Made by a program: the position numbers and the translations under genes. The notes under the pieces are model-generated. The model was not told the DNA's origin and did no database searches. It worked only from the letters and a program-made list of their open reading frames with translations. This document shows, in pieces, positions 12,081-60,100 of a DNA stretch of 64,000 nt (positions within the stretch are counted from its first letter, which is position 1; every line of letters starts with the position of its first letter). Source of the stretch: Dissophora ornata (taxonomy: Eukaryota > Mortierellomycota > Mortierellomycetes > Mortierellales > Mortierellaceae); assembly GCA_025201705.1 (NCBI GenBank), contig MU616603.1:6874-70873 (forward strand). Direction: 5' to 3'.

Positions 12081-14311
12081 ATGCGATTATCAAACGGATC
12101 GAGAGAATCAGCCTCTCGCAACGACAACAATGCAGCAACCTCCGCCTCTGAAATCTCCCAGTACTCTTCTTACGAGTCCTTGTTCACCAATCACCAGAAA
12201 TCCGCTACTTTCAAGGTCCTGATTGTGGGCGCTGGGATCGGTGGTCTATTGCTGGGCCTCTGTCTTGAGAAGGCTAACATCGACTATGTGATCCTTGAAA
12301 GAGATCAGAGACCCGAGATTCCGAAGGCAACCTTCCAATTGACATTCAACACGTTGTACTCGATAGAGCAGCTTGGTCTGCTCGACGAGGTTATGGCGAT
12401 TTCCAAGCCAGTGGCCCAGATTGCTTTGCGTAAACACAACTTGTCTGTCATTGGGAAGATTGATTGCCTGTATTTCAAGGAGAGGTATGAAGACAAACAA
12501 ACCCCTCTCCTCCCACCTGATACCGAGCGAGGCTCTGTAAAAAATAAAATTTCGTACGACGACGGCGCAAATAATCGGACGGCGCACACTTTCGAGCCAT
12601 TCAACAAAAAGTGCACCGTCAAAGACATCGCGCCCCAGTACATCGCTATCTATAGCTGCCGTGCAGATACTGGGGCATCTTATTTATTCTTGCTCGTTGC
12701 AACATCACCCGTCTTCATTCTTTATATCTCGTGTATTGCCTGCCCATCAAATGCTTCCAGATCTCTAATTTTTTTTCCTTTTCTTCCTCGTCACTTGTGT
12801 AGATATGGTCACTATTCGTACGTCGTACAAAGGACCGAGTTTTGCCAACTCTTGATCGCAAGGATGCGTCCAGATCGCATCCTATGGGGTCTCAAAGTGC
12901 TCGAGACCGTCAGCGGCGACATGGGAGTTCAATGCCGATGTGCGAACGGTCATGTAGAGCAGGGCGACATCCTCGTCGGCGCAGACGGCGCTCATTCCGC
13001 AGTCCGACAAAACTTGTATAGAACTCTCCGGGAAAAGAATCTTCTACCCAAAGTCGATCAGGAGAGCATGAAGTTTACGCAGAACGCAGTCATTGGACTG
13101 ACAAATCCCTTGGATTTGAGTCGGTTCCCGGAGGCGGGAGCAGAGTTTGCTCAAGTCCACATCGTCGTGGGCAAAGAATCTCCCCTCACGGTAAGTGTTT
13201 TTAACAGCCCGGTTCATCTTGACAATACCAGAATCAATAGCTGGAGGCTGGAAGCAGGGAGCTAACCGAAGACATCTGGCGTCTCACTCCTCATAGATGT
13301 GGCTTTCGCCAACGTCCGGAAACAAGGTGAACTGGTCGGTTACAGGACCATTGCTGACAAGCAACCGGTCTGAAGAAAATTTCATGGTGTCACAGTTTGG
13401 ACCGGAGGAGATTGATAAAACCTGCCGCCTTCTTGAGCATCTGCAAATCCCTTACGGAGGCACTCTTGCAGACCTGATTGCGAATACACCCAGAGATTGC
13501 ATAACCAAATTCTTGGTTGAAGAAAAGGTAAACGAGAAGGCGGAGTGTTTTTTTACTTGTCTGACGCGTTATTTTGAGTGTAGGATCTAACAGGCGGTTT
13601 ATCTTTTCTGCAAAAACAGCACTACAAAACATGGTATCATAGGCGGACAGTTCTTATTGGTGAAGGTTGGTGCCTTCAAGCGGTGCTCCTTGATTGATTT
13701 CTCTTTGTTCTTGAAATTGTTCCCTTTACTCATCGCGCGTTTCTATCCTATCCTTATGCACTTTTCACTTTCATCAGCTTCCCACAAGGTAAAGACTGCT
13801 TTCTAGCGGCCCTGATCAGGACTAACGTTCCTCTCTCCGCGCTTATCATTTGTCGCTTATCCCCCCACACCACTAATCTCCCACCTCATTGTTCTTCAAA
13901 TGACAGTTTGTCTCATTCTCGGGTCAAGGAGCTGAACAGGCAATCCTCGATGCTGTCACCCTGGCCAACCTTCTTGAAAAGATCCCAAGTCCGTACACCT
14001 TAAGTGATATCACCGAGTCATTTAAGGAGTTCCAGGAGCAGCGACTCCCTTCGATCAAAGCGGCTAGAGCATCTTCCGGGCAGGTTACCAACATGATCAA
14101 CAGCCAGGGGCTCGGGGTTGAGATCATGCGCAAGATAGTGTTTAACCTGCCGACATGGGTCCAAGCGGTTTCGATAGACAAGGCGCAAGCACGGCCATCG
14201 CTGGACTACTTGCCAGCGGTGCAGTTACGGGGAACAAAGACGATACGTTCCCCTAGTAGCAAAAGGGATGGTCTTACGAAGCACAGTACCGTATCATCAT
14301 TGATGCTGTAG
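12081..14311 (+). CDS. FAD-dependent monooxygenase (group A, PHBH-like fold)
   Basis: Six exons join in phase: 12081-12484, 12803-13190, 13297-13527, 13620-13665, 13778-13788 and 13907-14311 (494 residues). After about 40 disordered residues comes the Rossmann motif VLIVGAGIGGLLLGLCLEKA with its distal acidic residue (ILERD). The second FAD/NADPH motif is GADGAHSAVR. The third motif reads LIGEASHKF, then FSGQGAEQAILDA. It is completed only if an 11-nt exon (13778-13788, encoding the A-SHK piece) is included, which strongly supports that exon. Here the usual GD is GE, and the Pro that normally follows the His is missing, so cofactor geometry may differ. The family hydroxylates or epoxidises aromatic and polyketide-like substrates with NAD(P)H; the substrate is unknown. 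It is a distant paralogue of the pair at 48756-52801. Confidence 0.88.
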
Positions 14312-43622: not shown

Positions 43623-44308
43623 CTACTGTTTCTCTGGCTCAGAGGCCGTCTCCGGAGTGACCTCAAGAGTGCTTGGGGGAGGAGCTGGAATAGGACGAGG
43701 AACCGGGTTTTCCCAGCGTTTCTCTGGAGTGACCTCGAGAGTGCTTGGAGGAGGAGCTGGAATAGGACGAGGAACCGGGTTTTCCCAGCGTTTCTCTGGA
43801 GTGACCTCGAGAGTGCTTGGAGGAGGAGCTGGAATAGGACGAGGAACCGGGTTTTCCCAGCGTTTCTCTAGAGTGACCTCGAGAGTGCTTGGAGGAGGGG
43901 CTGGAATAGGACGAGGAACCGGGTTTTCCCAGCGTTTCTCTGGAGTGACCTCGAGAGTGCTTGGAGGAGAGGCTGGAATAGGACGAGGAACCGGGTTTTC
44001 CCAGCGTTTCTCTGGAGTGACCTCGAGAGTGCTTGGAGGAGGGTCTGGAATAGGACGAGGAACCGGGTTTTCCCACCGTTTCATTGGCTCAGAATGGATC
44101 TCTGAGAGCTCTAAAATGAGGTATGCCGGTTAGCGCTTTGGGATTCTACGCAGTGGATACAAGAGGCATATAAAATACACGCAGTGGCATATATTCGACG
44201 CGCTGTATTGATGTTGGAATTGTACTTACTGCCTTCGGGGATAGGCGCAGCTGACGCCGAGAAGGAAGCAGCCAAGATAATGGCGAAGGTGAGAGTGGTG
44301 ATACGCAT
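43623..44308 (-). CDS. Secreted Kex2-type repeat peptide precursor
   Basis: Exon 1 is 44308-44230, GTAAGT donor; exon 2 is 44110-43623, acceptor TTTTAG; phase 1 agrees (188 residues). Residues 1-20 are a signal peptide (MRITTLTFAIILAASFSASA). A short propeptide follows to residue 36 (APIPEGKLSEIHSEPM). From residue 37 there are six units of 24 residues, each beginning Lys-Arg (K37-R38, 61-62, 85-86, 109-110, 133-134 and 157-158). The released peptide would be 22 residues: WENPVPRPIPAPPP, then STLEVTPE. Variants are Asp-Pro (unit 1), Ala-Ser (unit 2) and Leu-Glu at the end of unit 3. The tail is TASEPEKQ. Signal peptide plus identical units divided by dibasic kexin sites is the layout of yeast alpha-factor and of fungal kexin-processed peptides. 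No Cys is present. Function (signal, antimicrobial, or cyclised product) is unknown. Confidence 0.85.
43650..44085 (-). repeat. 72-bp coding minisatellite, six copies
   Basis: Six in-frame 72-bp units, almost identical in DNA with only one or a few substitutions each. Such uniformity indicates recent unequal exchange or gene conversion. They encode the six peptide units of the precursor. Confidence 0.95.
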
Positions 44309-45130
44309 TATGGATGGAAAGGTGTATCTCTTGTGAACGAAGCGAAGTGAAGAAGTGGGTAGGAGAAAAGGGCGTGAAGATAGCTTTATTTATATGAATA
44401 TGCGTCAAGTTCCAAAATTGTCATGAGATACCGCGACATCGATGATTGGTATTCTACATGGCAAAACCAAGTACCCATATTCTTTGTCTCCTAAACCCAT
44501 ATTGTAAAATATAAGACATTTACAAAGAGGCGAACGCGAAAGTAACGGAAGAGGCGATGTGGGGCGTAGCTCAGACGGAGGCGAGTGATTTTCTTTTTCG
44601 ATGCTGTGCGATGTCAACAACAATCCTACAAGGCGAGTGAAACACGGTTGCACAAACGCAAATGGGAGTAAGAAGCGCGATCTCGTCTTGGGGTTTTCTG
44701 CTTTTGCTTCAGGTTATGGTCCTGAATATGTAGCATTACCGAGGTGAACATATGGTTCTTGATACCTGGATCTTATACAGGCATTACTCGAACAGAATCA
44801 AGGTGGGAATTGGAGTCCATATAAATAGGCCGGTTCATGCACAAATGCTGTGTCCATTGCTTGACCAAAATATAAGCAAATATGCATGCTGCTTGGGGCT
44901 CGTCTAACTTGCTATGCTACAATACACAATACATTAGCGCAGGCGATGAAACTGACCATTGTGAACTTAAAAGAATCATGCAAAAGGTCATCGGCCCTGA
45001 AAATCCTTGATTAGTGACGCCGGGTGGAGTGAGCCCTTTTCCCAAGCACAGCAGCACATGGCCGGGGAGGGTAGTCAAACCTTATTCCCATGACCCGAGC
45101 ACTAGGGCGACATCTTTCTTGATAGCGCTG
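44309..45130. other. Upstream region of the repeat-peptide gene
   Basis: AT-rich, with no supported gene. The promoter of the minus-strand precursor should lie in its first few hundred bases. Confidence 0.45.
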
Positions 45131-46486
45131 ATACGAGCGGGTATACATAGTATATTTTGAGGTATCGCAGCAAAGCAACGAGCCATACACTCATGAGATA
45201 ATAGAGTTCTCCTTGAAATACCATCAAAGAGAGCGGCCAAGAAGAAGGAGAAGAAAAGGAAATGGGCCCTGCCAAAGAAGGCTAAGAGCGGGGGCGATAG
45301 CAGACGACCTGGAGGCGCGACGAAACGAGGCCGGGGCCTGCGACGCTGCTACCAGGTGAAAACGCTGCTACCAGGTGAAAACGCTGCTACCAGGTGAAAA
45401 CGCTGACCGTGGGCTGCATCAAGGCCAATGCGCAGAGATCTCTTGCCTTGGACTCTGCTGACTCGAGCAGTTCCTCGGCTGGTACATCCTCTGCAGCTGT
45501 GCACACAGCCGAGACGGATGCCGCGTGTATCGCACAGCGGCTGCGATTGTGTGTAGGAGTGATCAATAAGATCCAAATTCATGTTTTTGAGAATATCGCT
45601 CTAGACATTGCAACTCTGGTCAGGCCAGATCTATTGGGCCAAGAAAGCCAGGATGGGCTGCAGGGCGCAGGGGTAGCTGGTTGAAAGGGTAAGCAAAGAG
45701 CTGAGGGTGAGTTGCTGGGTGCAGGAGCCGCGACCAGCTCTAGTCTCAGAGGCAAACGAAAGGCCGAAGCTGATCAAGAAGGCCTTGATGACCAGCGCCT
45801 TTGCGACCTCCAAGACATTCTAGAGAACGAGGGGTTTTATTACTCTCTCTGTACCCTATTATGCTCGGGTAAACTTGGAGCGATGTCAAAGTACGAGCTC
45901 GTTCGCAATGCTCCGGCAACGACCATGGCGACTAGACGTACTCCTGCCGGTTCCTGTGCGACCATGGATGTGCCTCATGCGCAACGCGTGTATGATCGTT
46001 ACAAAGCGGCAAGCGCCTTCATCCCGTTTGCGGATCAAGGGATCATCAATATGTTCCCGTCTACTGTGGCACGCCTTGCGGTACGCATGGTCATAAATGC
46101 GATCAGAGCTCACTACTATAGTTCGAAGGAATGCAGAAAAATCCAATGCTGGGATTAAATACCGCTTTGATGAATATCAATTAACAGCCTTTATTTCATT
46201 CAATTTGCAGGGGGTGAAAAAAGGAATGCGATCGAGTATTTTTTCGAGATGAGTCGCAAGGAGCGGATGTTTGTAGATCTTCCCAAGTCAGAGTTAGCTC
46301 CAGGGTTCATATACCTGAGCGAGACGGATCTGGTCCACATTCTCTTCACAGACGAAGTCATGAATAAGAGCGTGGCCTATCGTGTCGTCCAGAGAATTCT
46401 TGGATGTCCTAACGCCAAGTCAGCCGAGAAGAAGGTTGTGGACTGCAAAGGCTTCTTGATCCAGCAGCTCTTTTTCAGGACCAATT
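45131..46486 (+). pseudogene. Broken gene of unknown family
   Basis: From about 45131 one frame reads coding-like sequence (VYIVYFEVSQQSNEPYTHEI, then a Lys-rich AAKKKEKKRKWALPKKAKSG) up to a 19-bp triplication at 45345-45401. The natural continuation (TVGCIKANAQRSLALDSADS, then QIHVFENIALDIATLVRP) is in the frame reached with one copy instead of three. That frame meets an in-frame TGA at 45682, runs on (LRGKRKAEADQEGLDD, then YDRYKAASAFIPFADQGI) to 46158, and after a gap continues at 46249-46486 (MSRKERMFVDLPKSELAP). The downstream end meets the left arm of a long inverted repeat at 46487. The family is not recognised; Lys-rich N-terminal signals suggest a nuclear protein. Confidence 0.5.
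45345..45401. repeat. 19-bp perfect triplication causing a frameshift
   Basis: Three exact head-to-tail copies of GCTGCTACCAGGTGAAAAC. Two extra copies add 38 bp, which is not a multiple of three, and break the surrounding reading frame. Confidence 0.95.
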
Positions 46487-47030
46487 TCTCAGTATATCTC
46501 TATACCCTTTGTATACTCACGCAGCGACCATAACGCCATTGAACGTTTGGAAAGATTCCACGACAGGAAGTGCCTGGGCCTTCCTGAAAGTGAGGAGATT
46601 CTGCTTTTTTGAAACTCCTACCATTAGTCTCCAACCATTGCATTTTTCACAGTGACGGTTACAAGGAGCAGGCCGAAGTGGCAGTACAGCTCGTGGTTGT
46701 TCTGTGACCGACTGAAGCACAACGGAAACAACACTTCTAACTGAAACTGCCTTCTCGTATTCCATCGAAAAATTTCGTGTCACTCACAAATCACAAAATC
46801 TGTTGTTCATTAGGAGGTGTATTGAACTTTCGGTACTCTTGGTAACACTACGCCCTATAGACTTAATTGCGACTCACGTTTAGATAAAGTTGTGCTTTCT
46901 TTTTTTATTGCGTGCCAACTACATAACTGTAGCGTGCAGATCAACCAATGAGGCGACCAAAGTCAATGCCGAAGCTACTACCAAACGCCGAGATAGACAC
47001 CTTGCGCCCGATCTGGAAGCCGCAGCCTGC
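46487..47030. repeat. Left arm of a long inverted repeat
   Basis: Begins at TCTCAGTATATC and ends at CGCAGCCTGC. Its sequence recurs in reverse complement at 47523-48032 with scattered substitutions and small gaps. On the plus strand it encodes the end DHNAIERLERFHDRKCLGLP...EEILLF-stop; on the minus strand it encodes AGCGFQIGRKVSISAFGSSF-type sequence. Confidence 0.92.
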
Positions 47031-47612
47031 AAGATTGATGGCTCCTGGGTTTCGGACAACTTCGATCTTCGAGACGTCATCATGAACAACGACGGCGTTT
47101 TCCAAGCAATCAACGTCCCGATGATCCTGGCGATTCCGGACAACCAACAAAGTATCGTCTTCAGACAGCTGGAGGAAGCGTCAGCTCGCCCCGACTTCAA
47201 GATTCAAGCTTTTGACGAACCGGACGGTTCAACAACCTTCTACGTGAACGCGAGCGCCGAGGCAGAGGGCACCATCTTCAGGACGTACACGGCCGAAGGC
47301 AGAGCCTCTGTCTTGCATGTAGTCCAGTCAAATGGCAAGCAGATCGAGCAGGTCAGCGTCGATGTGTTCACTGCCGGAATCGGCGCGACGGTCGGGTCCT
47401 ACATGGGTGTTGAAGCGAATGTCAGTCTGATCAAAGCCAAGGCAAGTATCTTTGACTTGAACCTCGTTGTTGGCGTCAACACGGGTGCTAGGATCAAGGA
47501 CGAGTCCTTTGAAGCGAATGTAGCAGGCTGCGGCTTCCAGATCGGGCGCAAGGTGTCAATCTCGGCGTTTGGTAGTAGCTTCGGCATTGACTTTGGTCGC
47601 CTCATTGGTTGA
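47031..47612 (+). pseudogene. 5'-truncated gene fragment in the hairpin loop
   Basis: An open frame reads SWVSDNFDLRDVIMNNDGVF, VPMILAIPDNQQSIVFRQLE, VDVFTAGIGATVGSYMGVEA and KAKASIFDLNLVVGVNTGA, ending FGIDFGRLIG-stop. The Gly/Ala/Ser beta-rich C-terminus resembles stand-alone solenoid-like tails seen at the end of diverse eukaryotic proteins of unknown function. Upstream of 47031 the frame stays open to 46890, but that part is only the antisense of this gene's own 3' end lying in the left arm. The true 5' end therefore seems to have been lost when the inverted duplication formed. It might still be transcribed. Confidence 0.55.
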
Positions 47613-48032
47613 TCTGCACGCTACAGTCATATAGTCGACACGCAATAAATAATGAGAAATCACAAACTTTATCTGAACACGAGTCGCAATTGAGTCTATG
47701 AGGCGCAGTGTTACCAAGAGTACAGAACAAGTTTTGTGATTTGTGAGTGACACGATGGAATATGAGAAGGCAGTTTCAGCTAGACGTGTCGTTTCCGTTG
47801 TGCTTCAGTCGGTCACAGAACAACCGCGAACTGTACTGCCACTTCCGCCTGCTCCTTGTACCGTCACTGTGAAAAATGTAATGGTTGAAGACTAATGGTA
47901 GGAGTTTCAAAAAAGCAGAATCTCCTCATTTTCAGGAAGGCCCAGGCACTTCCTGTCGTGGAATCCTTCCAAACGCTCAATGGCGTTATGGTCGCTGCGT
48001 GAGTATACAAGGGGTCTAGAGATATACTGAGA
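47523..48032. repeat. Right arm of a long inverted repeat
   Basis: Reverse complement of 46487-47030. It covers the last 90 bases of the gene fragment at 47031-47612, its 3' flank, and the C-terminal coding part of the minus-strand fragment at 47907-48212. Differences from the left arm include short indels near 47650-47760. Confidence 0.92.
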
Positions 48033-48755: not shown

Positions 48756-50554
48756 CTAGACAGCTGCGGCAGATGTCTCTGTTGCAGCCGGTTCGCTCTC
48801 CTGCTGCCCCGCCTGCTCTCGCTCATGCTGTTGCTTCTCAAGGTACCTCTTGCAGGGTTCCTGGGGAAGAGGCTTGACGAAACCCTTGTGCGGAAATAGC
48901 GGCAAGAACCCAGCCTGGGGCTGATAGACACCCATCTTGTCCATGGCCTTTCGAACTACAAACTTTGGCACGTAGTTGAGAGCAATCTTTCGGACTATGC
49001 GGTCCCAGAAGCTCTATACATGTATGCCAGCGGATTCACGCGAAATACTCATATCAGACATCGGAATATTAAGGAATGTAAGGAAAGCAAATGATGACAG
49101 GCGACTTGAGAAAAACCTACGGCGCCCATGAGGATCTTGCCAAGCTGTTTGCTGGTGTTGATGTGATACCCTGCTTGCGTGAATCGAGCATCCTGATACT
49201 TCCTGAACGCGTTCGTGATTTCCTGAGAAGTATTGTAACGAATGTCGTAGATCATGTTGGCAAGAATAATGGCGTCGTGCATTGCGTTGATCGCACCTAA
49301 TGGCGAAAATGAAGGTGGCGGAGTCCTCCCTGATGTTAGCCCTCGATGCGTGCAGCTACTGGTAGGCAAGTATAATAAAAAGGTCTTTGACGAGATTTCC
49401 CTACCTTGGCCACCGCTAGGAAGCATCTTGTGGCAGGCATCTCCTAATAAAACAGCCCTGCCATCATACCACGTCTTGAACTGCTTCTCCTCCAGCATGA
49501 CTTTTGAGATTAAGGTCTTATCTGTTTGTTCGATCAGATCTCCCAAATCTCCACCATATGGCGTCTTATATCCTTTCACCTGCTGACACATAGCCTCTGC
49601 AGCCTCAGGTCCCCACTCCGAGTTGTTCACAATCTTTTCCTCCTTAGCTTTACTAGAGGCTTTCTGCAGCTGCAGAGTTACAAACCAACAGATCCTGTTC
49701 TCAGGCACGGTGAAGCACCAGACTGAGTAGCGCATACCGGGGGGTCCCATCAGGATAGAATGTCGGGTATCAGTTTCTTTGAGGATGGGGTATTTTTCAG
49801 AGTCGAGCTCTTTGGTAGTTCCAACTAAGCAGGTGTGACTGAAAGAGAGCTCTCCGGCGTCAGAGGCATGCAGCTTGTTCTTTTTGAGGAGATCCTCGTA
49901 CATGTGTTGACGAACGACACTGTAGGCACCATCAGCACCAACGATGATATCGCCCTGGGCGACTGTGCCGTCGGAACAGGTGATCTTGACACCGGTGCCG
50001 GGTTGAGCGGTGGGGGAAAAATCCTGTTCTACCAAGGTGATCTTCTTGCCCATGTGGATCTTGGTCTGGGGGACTTGGGACAACAGCAAGTCGTACAATT
50101 CGGGTCTTGCAACAATGACACTCGGATATCCCATCCTGAATATTAAATGGAAGGACACATGCACACACAGGTGCGCACTCAAATTAGCAACGAAAAAAAC
50201 CCCCTGGGTTCCGATGTCGCTTGTCGTACCTCGATCACCCAATTAGTGTGTTGGTGATACCTACCGTGCTTCAATCTCGGTGGCGTCGATCTGCCCCAAA
50301 CTCTGGAGGTTCTCTCCAACTACACGGGTATACTGGACGCGCTTTCCAAATTTCCAGACGTCGTCACAAATGCCCAGTTGCTGAAAGAACGGGAGGATGT
50401 TGGCGTTGAGCTGGACTGCAGAACCAAGAGGTCGGACCTGTGCGGCACGTTCGTAGACCTCATAGTCAATGCCGGCCTTTTCGAGAAGAATCGCTGTGGT
50501 GAGTCCACCGATGCCAGCTCCGACAATAAGCACTTTGAGATTCGGATCTTCCAT
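48756..50554 (-). CDS. FAD-dependent monooxygenase, tandem copy 1
   Basis: Exons 50554-50265, 50135-49405, 49296-49121 and 49013-48756 join in phase (484 residues). The N-terminus has KVLIVGAGIGGLTTAILLEK, then an ERAAQVRPLGSA stretch. The DG motif is GADGAYSVVRQ. The third motif is VLLGDACHKMLPSGGQG-AINAMHDAI, with the expected GD and Pro, split by the third intron of the region. The C-terminal tail is Pro/Glu-rich. The family uses FAD and NAD(P)H to hydroxylate small molecules. It lies 506 bp downstream of a close paralogue on the same strand. The retained motifs predict a working enzyme; the substrate is unknown. Confidence 0.92.
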
Positions 50555-51060
50555 GGCGCACCAAAGAAAATGGAAGCGGGTATAAATAGGTAAATAGAGT
50601 CAAGGGAGAAACAGAGGGGCGGAGGAATGAAAAGCAATGGGAATGAAATGGGGATGAGGAGAGCGATTGTCTCGTTGCCGATTATGAATGGAAGGGCAAG
50701 AAGGAGTGCACCTTGGCGGTCTTCTCCAGTTGCTAAGCTGAAAATGTACTGTAGTGAGCAGGATGAGCTTCCATTGTTTGGGAGCAAGCATTCTCTCCTG
50801 CTCGGAATGCATATTTGTTTTCTGTGAATGCAAACGCGGAAAGATTGAATTCTATTAACTTAAAAAAACTATGCCATGCACCTAACCATCAAGACAACGT
50901 CCGCCATGCATGCGGCTGAATAGAAAAGAAGCTCTAGATCGCTACTGTCAATTTCGAGGTCGATGGCGTTGTGAGGATGATGTCGATGCTAATCGTTTAT
51001 CTTGGAGGTACCAGAGGCGCTGTGCGCGGATAGCGACGACGATGACTACGAGCCTGGCCC
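50555..51060. other. Spacer between tandem monooxygenase genes
   Basis: Promoter of copy 1 and 3' flank of copy 2; no further gene seen. Confidence 0.5.
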
Positions 51061-52801
51061 CTATCTGGATGGTGTCTGCGGAAAGACCTTCATGATTCCT
51101 CGCGTAGGGACCTGTGGAAGAATTGTCGACTGTGGCCGGTATGCACCGTTGCGGTCAAGCACCTTGCGCATGACAAACTTGGGGATGTAGTTCAGCGTCA
51201 CCCGGCGGAAGAATTCTTCAAATAATGTCTAGTACGCATAACCCACGCACATGTACGAGTAGGATATGTTATAATGCAATTTGGCAACACAGACAGAAGA
51301 ATGCATACAGAGACCCCACAGAGATATCCGTACCTGGCCCATGAGCGCCTTACCGAGCTGTTTGGACGCATTGACACTGTATTCTGCGTGTTTGTATCTC
51401 GACTGCTGGTAGAGCTTCAATGCAGTAGCAATATCCTGCGCCTTTTTGTCTTCGAGATCGTTGAGTATGTTACTAAGTACGATAGCATCCTGCATGGCAT
51501 TGATGGCGCCCTGCCCTCCGCTCAGCAACATCTTGTGGCATGCTGCACGTATTTAAGAATAGGACGGAGATGAGTCCTCTGCATCTTTGGCAACCCAAGT
51601 CTTTTCGCATTCCTCGGAGTGGAACACAGCAAGACATAAAAGTCTTACCATCGCCTATGAGCACAGTTCTACCGCTTGTCCAAGTATCGAAGAGCTTGTC
51701 CTCCAGCATGACCTTAGTTATCAAGTCCTTGGGCGTGACATCGATCAATTCACCAAGTGTACCACCGTACGGTGAATTGAAGTGCTTCACTTCATTGCAC
51801 ATCGACTCTGTTGCTTCGGGGCCCCATTCAGAGTTTCGAAACGCATCGTCGTTCTTACTCATCTCTTTCTTGAGTTGAATTGTTAGGTTCCAGCAGACAC
51901 GGTTACCTGGAATTGTGAAACACCACAACTTCTCGCAAACAAAGAGAAAAAATGCCTCGATTAGCATTTATATCCCTTCAAACAAAGACAACGCAACAAA
52001 GTACGCGATAGAATGTGGCACATACAGAGTACGGAGACTTGTCTCCCATGAGAATGATATGTTTGCAGTCCTCCTCCAACACCATTGGGTACTTTACTGG
52101 GTCCACAGGCAGCGTTGTACCCACAAGACAGATATGCGAATATGTCAGATCTTCTTGGTCTGATATAGGAAGTTCACCCTTCTGCTGCAACTGCCGAAAC
52201 AGAGACTGACGCACGGCGCTATAGACACCATCGGCTCCAACCAGAACATCACCCTGGGCGTCGGAATTGTCTGAGAACTGGATCTTGACGCTGGTTTCGT
52301 CTTGTTTGATCGAGAGGACTTTACGGTTCATGTGGATCTTGTTATTTGGGACCAATGTCAACAACAGCTCATAGAGCTCTTGCCTGTGGACAATCAGTGC
52401 TGGATATCCTGACCTTGTTTCAGAAAGTAAACGGGTTGATGTGGCTATCAGCGACTCGTACACCATCGGAGGGCATTTCTCTCGATTTGCGGCGGTATCT
52501 TGTAGTAAACTCACCGTTCCACAAATTCCAAGCTGTCAATGACTCCAATGACATTCATATTGTGATTTAACACCTTTGTCTCCCATACCTGTTTTGATAT
52601 GGCTTTGAGCTGGTCATAAAGGCCAAGTTGTTCAAATAGTGGGAGGATGTTGCAGTTCAAATGCATGGCGGATCCAAGTGGCCGCACTTTGACAGCTCGC
52701 TCAAAGACCATGTATGGGATACCAGCCTTTTCGAGCAAAATTGCTAGAACAAGTCCTCCTAAACCGGCTCCCACGATGAGCACTCCGACTTTGTTGTCCA
52801 T
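51061..52801 (-). CDS. FAD-dependent monooxygenase, tandem copy 2
   Basis: Exons 52801-52515, 52413-52026, 51928-51649, 51542-51334 and 51228-51061 join in phase (443 residues). Motifs are GVLIVGAGLGGLVLAILLEK, then GADGVYSAVRQ, then VLIGDACHKMLLSGGQGAINA. The Pro of the third motif is Leu here. The first intron position matches copy 1. Copy 2 has an extra intron between PYS and WCFTIP that copy 1 lacks, and its third-motif intron sits after the GD rather than after GGQG. The C-terminus lacks the Glu/Gln tail of copy 1. A tandem duplicate with later divergence; substrate unknown. Confidence 0.92.
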
Positions 52802-54105
52802 GATGGTGTATGTGAAGAAGGATGGTATACTAGAGAATATGGATTTTGTGTGATTTCAGGACACGGCGACCGTTGGACAAAGAATAGAGCCGGTTCTGGG
52901 AGAAGCGGAATGAGTGCGGTTTGAATAAGTGCAAGGATCGAGAACGAGCAGAGAGGGGAGAGAAGGATTAAAAAAAAAAAAAAAAAAAGTGTCCCCACAC
53001 CTGTCCTGCCCATGCTCTTATTGTACCCATGGTGTATCCATCTCTTCCTGTCATCGTGTGGTGCTTCTGTGTCCGCATTTATTTAGTCCGTTTTGTATTG
53101 AAAACCGCCATTGTGGGCCGTTCTGTCCAATACCGGCAACATGGCTCAAGTCCAACAAGTTTTCCCTTTTCGCCTCTCTTTCCCCCTTGACTCTTGTGTG
53201 ACAAATAGAAAAACAGTAACTGAGGCATGGCCAGGCCCCCGCTCCATGCTGTTTGGTCTTGTCTGTGTATTACATTGTGTACATGTACATACTGTGCAGA
53301 CAGAGATGCGTTGCCGAGGAAGTAGGTGTCCCACCCTTGTCTTGTTTTTCGTAGGCAACTGTGAGCAGGGTTTCGATGATCGTGATGATAAATTATAAGC
53401 TACTAGCTCAGCCGACCTCTTTGTTTCCTCGCTGGTCGCGACAGTATGGTTGCAGACTCACAATGCGTAATGTTCAAGTATTTTTGCCGAAATCTCTTTC
53501 CTTTGTTTATTTTACAAGCGCGAAAGTATTTGGCTGGAATTGCTAAAAACAAAAAAAGTTCTAGGTGTGCATGTGTCCCATCTGGGTGAATTGGGAGGGA
53601 ACGCGGACAGATCCAGTTGGCCATGACATAGAAAAAAATGCGACCTTTTAATGGATGCGATACAATAGACGACATTTGTTTCTATGGACTGTGTTTGTTT
53701 ATTGTCGACAAACACTTTCACGCATGTGCACCCTCCGTTCTATGCTCCTCCACAATATAGAAGTCGCAAGGGCGGGCAAGACACGACACATGGAGAGCAA
53801 GCTGTCTGAGTGATACCCCTAAAATTTCTCTCGACGAGACGATACTGTCATCATCATCATCATGTCTTTTGCAGGCAGTGTACAGTAGTAAGAGCGAGCT
53901 TCAATTGGACGCGAGTAAACAAAGGCTGCATTCTCATTCATTGGCGAGAGAGAGAAAGAGAGAAAGAGAGAAAGAGAGAGAGAGAGATAGGAAAAGAGGT
54001 TTAATGATAGACAGGAGACAAATTAGGTAATCTCAGAGAAGGGAGTCTTGTTCAAACTTTGGCAACACAGCAAAAACAGACGAAGCTATTTTGAACAAGT
54101 AGACT
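52802..54105. other. Intergenic region, no supported gene
   Basis: An A18 run at about 52970-52988, a GA-rich microsatellite at 53945-53988, and short frames without domain support. Confidence 0.5.
53945..53988. repeat. GA/GAAA microsatellite
   Basis: Purine-only GAGAGAGAAAGAGA-type tract of about 44 bp downstream of the DUF3684 gene. Confidence 0.85.
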
Positions 54106-57100: not shown

Positions 57101-60100
57101 ATGCGTCAGCAATCCGAGTTCCAGCAATAATTTGGCTTCATCTGAAGTTGATCTCCAACGGCCCTAGAGGTTTGGGAATTAAATCATTAGTATGCCGACT
57201 TAGACGATAGTTTGGTCGATGTGCGATTCTTCGCTGCCGGTCGTTACCTTCCACTCAATTACAGGCAACCCAAGAGCCACATGGTCTTCTGTGGGAACAT
57301 AGAGTGTGTTGGCTGGGTACCGCTTGATAGGCAAAGCAGGAGGAGTGGGTATTGCTGGCGATTCAGTGGTAGGATCATCCGTCTTTGGTGGCAAAGTTGC
57401 GGTCTTTTCCTTTTCGAAATCTTCCTTGGGAAAGATTGAAGTCGCCTTTAGACGCTTCATCTCGCCAGATGAAAGCGTGTCCCTGACAGAGGCCAGGTAC
57501 TTGACCAGCTGCATATGATCCCAGCTTCCTGCATTCACCAGCCTATCAAACACCAATTGCAGTTCCACACTCTGGGATGCAGTAAAAGGAGAGGGACCTC
57601 AGTCAGTTAACATCATATGGTATATTATCCTTTAGCGAATAGAAGCCACAGTTAATACAATCCTCACCTTACGAGCCCCCATTGCCGCTAAGAGCTTCTC
57701 AAGTGGCTGCTTCGTAAACACCATGACAGGAAGGTCTGGGAATAATGTTACAGTCTTGAAATACGACTCGTTCGGCAACTTCATGCCATACTTGGTCGGG
57801 ATGCACTTTTTCTGTGCTATCATCGCGACGGTTGCCTTTTGGGTATTTTCATGGAGCTGTGTCCACCCACGCGACAGGACCAACAGAACCTTTTCGGCGA
57901 ACGCAGGCGACTCCTCAAAGTCGGGTTCATTCACGATGAACTTTGTCCACTCCAGCAAATTGAGCTCTTGCCAAGCTCCTGAGATCCGGTATAACTCGGG
58001 CTGCGTAAACGTCTTTGTGATATCGTAAGGCACTGTGTTGGGCGGGAGAGGCATATCGATCGGCGTCACCTTTGGATTTACAAACCACTTGAGCATTGAT
58101 AGGGGCTTGATCGAGTCGCCAGATTTCACAAGCGCCGACTGGAAAAACGCATTAACATCCGCGTCTGGGAGCGTCTGCCTTGGCCGGTAATCGATCCACC
58201 ACTTCAGCATGGCCACCATCTGTGGTTCGGGCAGCGCCCTACCCTCAAGCTCCGCCAGAACATCCTTGAACGAGATTCTCTGCACCTTACCCGCCCTCTC
58301 TAGCTTATCCATGAATTTTTCGCTTCCAGAGTACACACTAGTTGGAATAATGGGAACTTTCTTCAAGAACCCTGCCATAGTTGGCTCTGGGATGCGGACT
58401 TTATCTAATGGCTTGACTCCACGAGAGGATAGAGTCGATAGCGCCAGTGTGGACATCCTGAAAAAATAGGCGTCGATGTAGTGTCCGACCTGGGGACTGG
58501 GGGTACTTGGGTGGAACTGGAAAGCCTGCAAGGCATGAAGCGCGCGCTTTTCCAGCCATTCTCGTGCTACTGCTGATGTTTCATCGTCGACTTCATCTGG
58601 GTTCTGATGAGCAAGAATCATCTCGTTATAAAGATTGCCAATTTGCAAGAGCTCGTCCTCGTAGAGTGCGCGAGAGAGCAATCCAGCCATTGACAGTAGC
58701 TCATGATTCCAAATCTGAAGAGTTTTGTCGACAAAATCCAAGCTCTCGCGCTCAACAGTTGGGATGAATCGTCCTGCTACATGGCTGCAGAATCCAGTTG
58801 TCTGGTGCGTTGGAAACCCAATGAAGATCCTGCCTTGTTCCGGGAAAGGAACTAAATCTTTGAAGATAGTCTTGTTTTCTGCAGACGCCTGTTTCTCATC
58901 GTGTCCAACGTATAAGATTTGAATAGCGGTTTGGCTTGGAGGGTATTTCTTTGTTGTCCGCTCCATCTCGGCGGAAAACTGCTTTGTCACCTTGACGTCC
59001 AGATTTCCAGACGCAGTTCTCAAAAAGATGGTTGTGACACTCGTACTGACTTCCCTGGTCCATCTCGAGACTTCCATCCTGGTGGCGTCCATTTGCACAC
59101 TCTGAAGGTCGACTGACTTCAGCGTAAAGATCTTTTGTGGGGATGTCATGTACATGGTCTTTGGTAATGTCATCGGGCGAGGTTCCCTCATCTTCTTGGA
59201 GATATTCAAGAGTCGATGGTGATCTAGGTACACAGAAATGTCGCGCAAATTGCCGGTGAAGCCTAGGGATCGGGCAAGAAAAGGGCCGAACTCATCCATG
59301 CTCAGCATGTCCATGGGTTCACGGAGATCTAGCAAAAACGTTGTCCAGTCATCCTTTTGATTGTCTTCGTCGGGAATCGCTGCCCTCTTCGCATATAGCT
59401 GATCATTCCTCCAGTAAAACGCCATGCACTCTTTTCCGGACGATACACTACGTAGAAGTATATTAACGTTAGATTTCATTGAGATACATGGTGTATGTAC
59501 TACCTCCTCAACTCAACCCAAAACTTACAATGGTTCTTCGCAAATCGAAAAGAGCGAGTACTGTAATCAAAGTGTTGATACGAGAGTTAAAGTCAGTAGG
59601 GTGTCGTGTGATGCCGATAATCCGGACAAGAGGCATCAGAAGCCACGTTTCTCAAAGACTTACAAATCCGACACCGAAAGCGCCGATCTAGTCATGTATG
59701 AAGAGCCAATCAAGTCAGTCCGTTTGTCTTGAGAAAGTCAAAGAGATATCTGCCAGTGATTGGCGCAGCGCTATACCTTGGATTCATCTGGGTTTCCCTC
59801 AGCAATCTTCTTCAAGCGGTTCCAATCTTCCGGTCTAAAGGCCATTCCGTTGTTTTTGAAAAGGACCCTAGTGATCTTGGCGCTCAAGTTAGGGACTGTC
59901 TCGTGGCTACTTGGCGATGCAGTCTCGAAGACTATCTCTATCCCCTTGGCTCCGGCATCGTCTGATCAAATCGAGGATTGTATCAGTAACATGCAGCGCT
60001 TCTGGTCTTCGTACGTCACTGTAATTGTAATCAGAAGGCATCAACGTACCAGAGTTCTGCATGAGTTCTCGGTAGACGACATATTCGGCCGAGTATCTAT

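Follow-up and report, generated by a model that had tools for sequence, protein, structure and literature searches.

A predicted KEX2-processed repeat protein with six near-identical proline-rich units, an orphan in the searches made, from a probable Mortierellomycota genome

The minus strand of a 64,000-nucleotide stretch of fungal DNA (the window) carries at positions 43623-44308 a gene that probably encodes a secreted KEX2-processed repeat protein (KEP). The gene layout, the six Lys-Arg (KR) pairs in register with the repeat and the genome's own kexin and carboxypeptidase genes are observed. The predicted signal peptide would route the precursor into the secretory pathway, where kexin, in the late Golgi, would cut after each of the six KR pairs and a Kex1-type carboxypeptidase would trim off the Lys-Arg left at the end of each of the first five. 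The secreted products would then be five 22-residue peptides, WENPVPRPIP[A/D][P/S]PPSTLEVT[P/L]E, and one 30-residue C-terminal peptide, all linear, acidic and proline-rich. On the sequence, we regard the gene as a putative orphan member of a known fungal precursor type.

The predicted 188-residue protein is encoded by two putative exons that join in frame, and the original prediction was right in its coordinates and in its description of a signal-peptide-like start, a propeptide running to MKR, six 24-residue KR units and a short tail. The features are, in the direction of transcription:

44387..44394 (-), TATA-like element TATAAATA, 86 nt upstream of the ATG (by consensus match only)
44230..44308 (-), exon 1, 79 nt: ATG, signal-peptide-like MRITTLTFAIILAASFSASA, then APIPEG (by hydropathy and an A-S-A site)
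44111..44229 (-), intron, 119 nt, GT-AG type, GTAAGT...GCTAAC...TTTTAG (by sequence signals)
43623..44110 (-), exon 2: propeptide end, six units, tail, stop codon TAG
44010..44081 (-), unit 1, KRWENPVPRPIPDPPPSTLEVTPE
43938..44009 (-), unit 2, KRWENPVPRPIPASPPSTLEVTPE
43866..43937 (-), unit 3, KRWENPVPRPIPAPPPSTLEVTLE
43794..43865 (-), unit 4, KRWENPVPRPIPAPPPSTLEVTPE
43722..43793 (-), unit 5, KRWENPVPRPIPAPPPSTLEVTPE
43650..43721 (-), unit 6, KRWENPVPRPIPAPPPSTLEVTPE, with three silent changes relative to unit 5 and no KR after it
43623..43649 (-), tail, TASEPEKQ and stop codon
43507..43512 (-), AATAAA, 111 nt past the stop codon, possible polyadenylation signal (by consensus match only)
43434-43429 (-), second AATAAA (by consensus match only)

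The precursor thus reads MRITTLTFAIILAASFSASA-APIPEGKLSEIHSEPM-KR, with the six 24-residue units counted from that KR (the end of the propeptide being MKR), followed by TASEPEKQ and the stop. The succession of TATA-like element, leader exon, donor GTAAGT, GCTAAC and AATAAA is that expected for a gene. Within the intron, GCTAAC lies at 44134-44129, so that its branch-type A stands 19 nt before the 3' end of the intron. The window contains three instances of this donor-branch-acceptor pattern, and 30 Markov controls contain 1.8 on average and at most 5; the pattern is therefore compatible with the predicted intron without proving it. The leader, which presupposes that intron, contains an A-S-A site and a hydrophobic stretch whose 11-residue hydropathy mean reaches 2.37, the signal peptide being called from hydropathy alone. 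According to computed translations, retention of the intron would give a 65-residue product devoid of units, and initiation at the ATG of MKR would give a 153-residue protein lacking the signal peptide. The window gave no match in Rfam or tRNA scans.

The array has a period of 72 nt and 6.0 copies, with 97% matches, 0% indels and a score of 798 (TRF). Each unit consists of KR followed by a 22-mer; the six units of 24 residues cover 144 of the 188 residues, and five of them are bounded by KR on both sides. Units 4, 5 and 6 encode the same 22-mer, WENPVPRPIPAPPPSTLEVTPE. The original prediction of near-identical units beginning Trp-Glu-Asn-Pro holds at 97% likeness, with the qualification that units 1, 2 and 3 carry the single-residue variants D, S and L, respectively. 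It had also proposed six 22-residue products, which is correct for five of them; because no KR follows unit 6, full processing would yield a 30-mer from that unit. The six KR, each opening a unit, are the only dibasic pairs in the protein. The array edges fall on the KR boundary: agreement with the base lying 72 nt downstream sets in at 44082, a single base ahead of the first KR codon, and breaks off one base past unit 6. When the repeat number and coverage thresholds of the pipeline described in PMC6339444 are applied, the protein passes the minimum of three similar fragments delimited by KR, RR or KK sites, and its repeats exceed 15% of its length (144 of 188 residues).

An open reading frame in such an array is little proof of coding, since repeating a 72-nt unit leaves every frame open that is open in one copy; in the present unit this applies to five of six. 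The changes between units are more informative. In this frame five of the eight leave the protein unchanged, where 28% would be expected to do so (P about 0.046, before any correction for six frames), compared with 1, 1, 1, 4 and 2 of 8 in the other five. With eight changes and six frames inspected, this test favors the proposed frame weakly. Taken together, the silent changes, the array edges at KR and the ordered gene signals favor this frame as the putative coding one. The window and 20 other parts of the genome (together 255,943 bases, or about 0.8% of 31.4 Mb) were scanned in all six frames for sets of three or more resembling fragments delimited by KR or RR, and this gene alone was found. 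The six-unit KR layout is confirmed at the level of sequence, and the scan points to more than chance.

The genome, 31.4 Mb in size, contains two tandem kexin-type genes with S8 and P domains (L003 and L004, contig C442, 7506-14767); yeast has one kexin gene. For each of the two, the one piece that was compared with solved structures had kexin as its best match (E 1e-70 for L003 and 3.4e-43 for L004). Three serine carboxypeptidase matches were compared likewise. The C-terminal piece on contig C143 is closest, narrowly, to KEX1 (E 7.9e-5 vs. 4.5e-4 for carboxypeptidase Y), and those on C300 (E 2.4e-143) and C634 are closest to carboxypeptidase Y. The presence of kexin and carboxypeptidase genes makes cutting at KR and subsequent trimming plausible, and the original assignment to a kexin-type repeat precursor is supported.

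The same layout could be read as that of a secreted repeat protein, rich in proline and belonging to the cell wall or matrix, in which Lys-Arg is an accidental part of the unit and stays uncut. Eight of 22 residues of the unit are Pro, and, since the units are about 97% alike, the shared KR could be a mere consequence of recent duplication, so that its conservation is uninformative. By the counts in PMC7329392, 7,878 of 69,264 secreted tandem-repeat proteins are KEPs (11%) and 61,386 are not, which makes the chance of a KR in each unit without purpose not negligible. An accidental pair does not readily account, however, for the placing of KR at both the edge of the array and the end of the propeptide, nor for the lack of any further dibasic pair in the 188 residues. 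Trp directly after KR should, moreover, be acceptable to kexin. We consider an uncut protein improbable.

The predicted 22-mer contains eight Pro among its 22 residues, no Cys and no Tyr, and has a charge of about -2.2 at pH 7 and a pI of 4.5; for units 4 and 5 its computed monoisotopic mass is 2422.25 Da. Units begin with WENP immediately after KR, with no STE13-type XA/XP dipeptide repeat, and every unit includes a PRP motif. The segment PIPAPPPST bears what we take to be a faint likeness to plant abscission-type peptides. The product is taken as a putative linear secreted peptide, and our guess is that a diffusible self-signal or a cell-surface peptide is likelier than a toxin or a cyclized RiPP.

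Proline-rich antimicrobial peptides form a cationic class, and the predicted peptide has the proline content of that class but, with a net charge of about -2 at pH 7 and a pI of 4.5, lacks its positive charge. A role as a proline-rich antimicrobial, or as an effector toward other organisms, accordingly has little probability, in spite of the PRP motif in each unit and of the Apidaecin annotation given to a KEP type common to Rhizophagus, Diversispora and Trichomonascus (PMC7329392). Neither Apidaecin nor any other Pfam family was matched at E up to 1.

A peptide signal for mating or between hyphae, acting like alpha-factor through a seven-helix receptor, would be a functional version of the KEP reading and does not compete with it. 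The precursor plan is that of alpha-factor, and the yeast peptide likewise starts with Trp. In length, the 22-residue unit falls within the range of 9-24 residues given for alpha-pheromones in PMC6339444. On the other side, no homologue or paralogue was found in the searches made, no Pfam family, mating factors included, was matched at E up to 1, and no STE13-type XA/XP repeat follows KR; without that repeat and a mating-factor match, the gene cannot be filed as alpha-factor. Searches of the genome for the receptors STE2 and STE3 gave no matches but were uninformative, being silent in the control genomes too, and the seven-helix family PF05462 also gave none. An alpha-factor-like role is unlikely, though conceivable. 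A more specific proposal, which we put forward very tentatively as an improbable one, is a putative lineage-specific linear peptide hormone that would serve mating or hyphal communication beside carotenoid-derived signals and be perceived by a receptor that belongs to none of the known pheromone receptor families. In work on the KEPs of Coprinopsis, which describes their expression in Pichia, no specific function is reported for any of the peptides studied (PMC9769878).

Searches for relatives were made at several levels. The full protein had no match at E up to 0.001 in 5.8 billion proteins, among the 8,000 best candidates scored, and the leader with the first unit gave six candidates, none at E up to 10. 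Pattern matches in viral contigs (8) and in bacterial and archaeal genome contigs (60) were not confirmed in any case, two units had no match to PDB sequences at E up to 1, and the precursor matched no Pfam family at E up to 1. Within the genome, a DNA search and a search with the 38-residue leader for a second copy recovered this gene only. The exon 2 protein matched itself and, weakly, an 826-residue open frame on contig C116 (27% identity, E 7.3e-6), which is taken as putative proline-rich low complexity; these paralogue searches are blind to a KEP built on an unrelated unit. The term orphan therefore applies to the protein, viral, bacterial/archaeal and PDB sets searched and holds for these searches only, because a short spliced gene is easily absent from protein sets, and a relative in a sister species could easily be missed. 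Orphan status is common for this type of precursor, given that 2,560 of the 7,878 KEPs surveyed, i.e., a third, had no homologue (PMC7329392).

The original prediction had considered an early-diverging lineage, and a neighboring DUF3684 protein (57632-59479) agrees with this, although as one gene only: its best named relative is from Benniella sp. (Mortierellaceae), at 58%. Its best matches reach 62-67% over 90-97% of the query, with two partial ones at 77 and 81%, and the next named matches after Benniella sp. are Cetraspora and Ambispora, which we take to belong to Glomeromycotina. The host lineage is likely to be Mortierellomycota, the DUF3684 protein being the sole evidence for this placement.

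Several other elements occur in the window. A near-palindromic inverted repeat at 46487-48032 (arms 46487-47036 and 47517-48032, five blocks of 87-96%) encloses an open frame at 46890-47612 with a sub-threshold match to the CVNH lectin family; it could be a mobile or duplicated element. An exact 19-nt tandem repeat of 3.3 copies is found at 45343-45405, and the window starts with a TGTTGC-type hexanucleotide repeat (1-255, 42 copies, 71%). Two adjoining, intron-split genes for FAD-dependent monooxygenases lie at 48756-52855 (-), the first recognized by Pfam and the second by eye from open frames, and a further FAD_binding_3 match is located at 12081-13265 (+).

Cyclization of the peptide in the manner of dikaritins (by UstY/DUF3328 enzymes), which the original prediction had raised, is disfavored and has, in our view, only the slightest probability. 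Dikaritin precursors follow the same plan, and FAD monooxygenase genes stand 4.5 to 8.5 kb away. Exon-level matches to FAD_binding_3 number at least 22, however, and are spread over 11 contigs, with 19 of 96 candidates scored, so that the local presence of this domain is not special, and the neighboring monooxygenases were dropped as candidate tailoring enzymes. No unit contains Tyr, which is usual in dikaritin cores for ether cyclization, if not universal. As originally noted, no DUF3328 gene is seen nearby: there is none among the 10 open reading frames of the window scanned, and PF11807 gave no matches in the genome, in a search made without a positive control. In the survey of PMC7329392, DUF3328 proteins were found in none of the six phyla besides Ascomycota and Basidiomycota.

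The expectation that a peptide of this type would be new for an early-diverging lineage does not stand, and the claim to novelty is weaker for it. KEPs in early-diverging fungi are reported in the pipeline study, where their role is described as still to be determined (Le Marquer 2019, PMC6339444), and in a survey of Mucoromycota, mainly Glomeromycotina and Mucoromycotina, that recorded 357 KEPs, spread over 38 of the 39 strains and in no case next to DUF3328 genes (Umemura 2020, PMC7329392). The word "Mortierella" is absent from the main texts of these two papers, and no study of such precursors in Mortierellomycota appeared among the papers listed in literature searches, judged by titles and abstract openings. 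Taken alone, the gene adds one orphan to thousands of others. It also supplies one defined, easily synthesized 22-residue signal candidate with a predicted mass, and bears on the peptide signals of early-diverging fungi.

Compared with known systems, the predicted precursor most resembles the KEPs of Mucoromycota and other early-diverging fungi, with which it shares a signal-peptide-like start, near-identical units separated by KR, a 22-residue peptide and no DUF3328 partner seen; in sequence, no match between them and this gene was found in the searches made. The precursor of yeast alpha-factor (MFalpha1) likewise has KR at each unit and a peptide with N-terminal Trp, but the present gene lacks the STE13-type spacer, would encode a different peptide and has no Pfam mating-factor match. 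The dikaritins (ustiloxin, phomopsin) are similar in precursor plan and differ in that the unit described here has no Tyr, no DUF3328 gene was found and there is no sign of cyclization. SP7 and related proteins of Rhizophagus irregularis, likened here by description, also come from an early-diverging fungus and are secreted repeat proteins with predicted kexin sites in their units; in contrast to the processed peptides proposed for the present gene, SP7 is described as active in the plant nucleus in its native form (PMC5293756).
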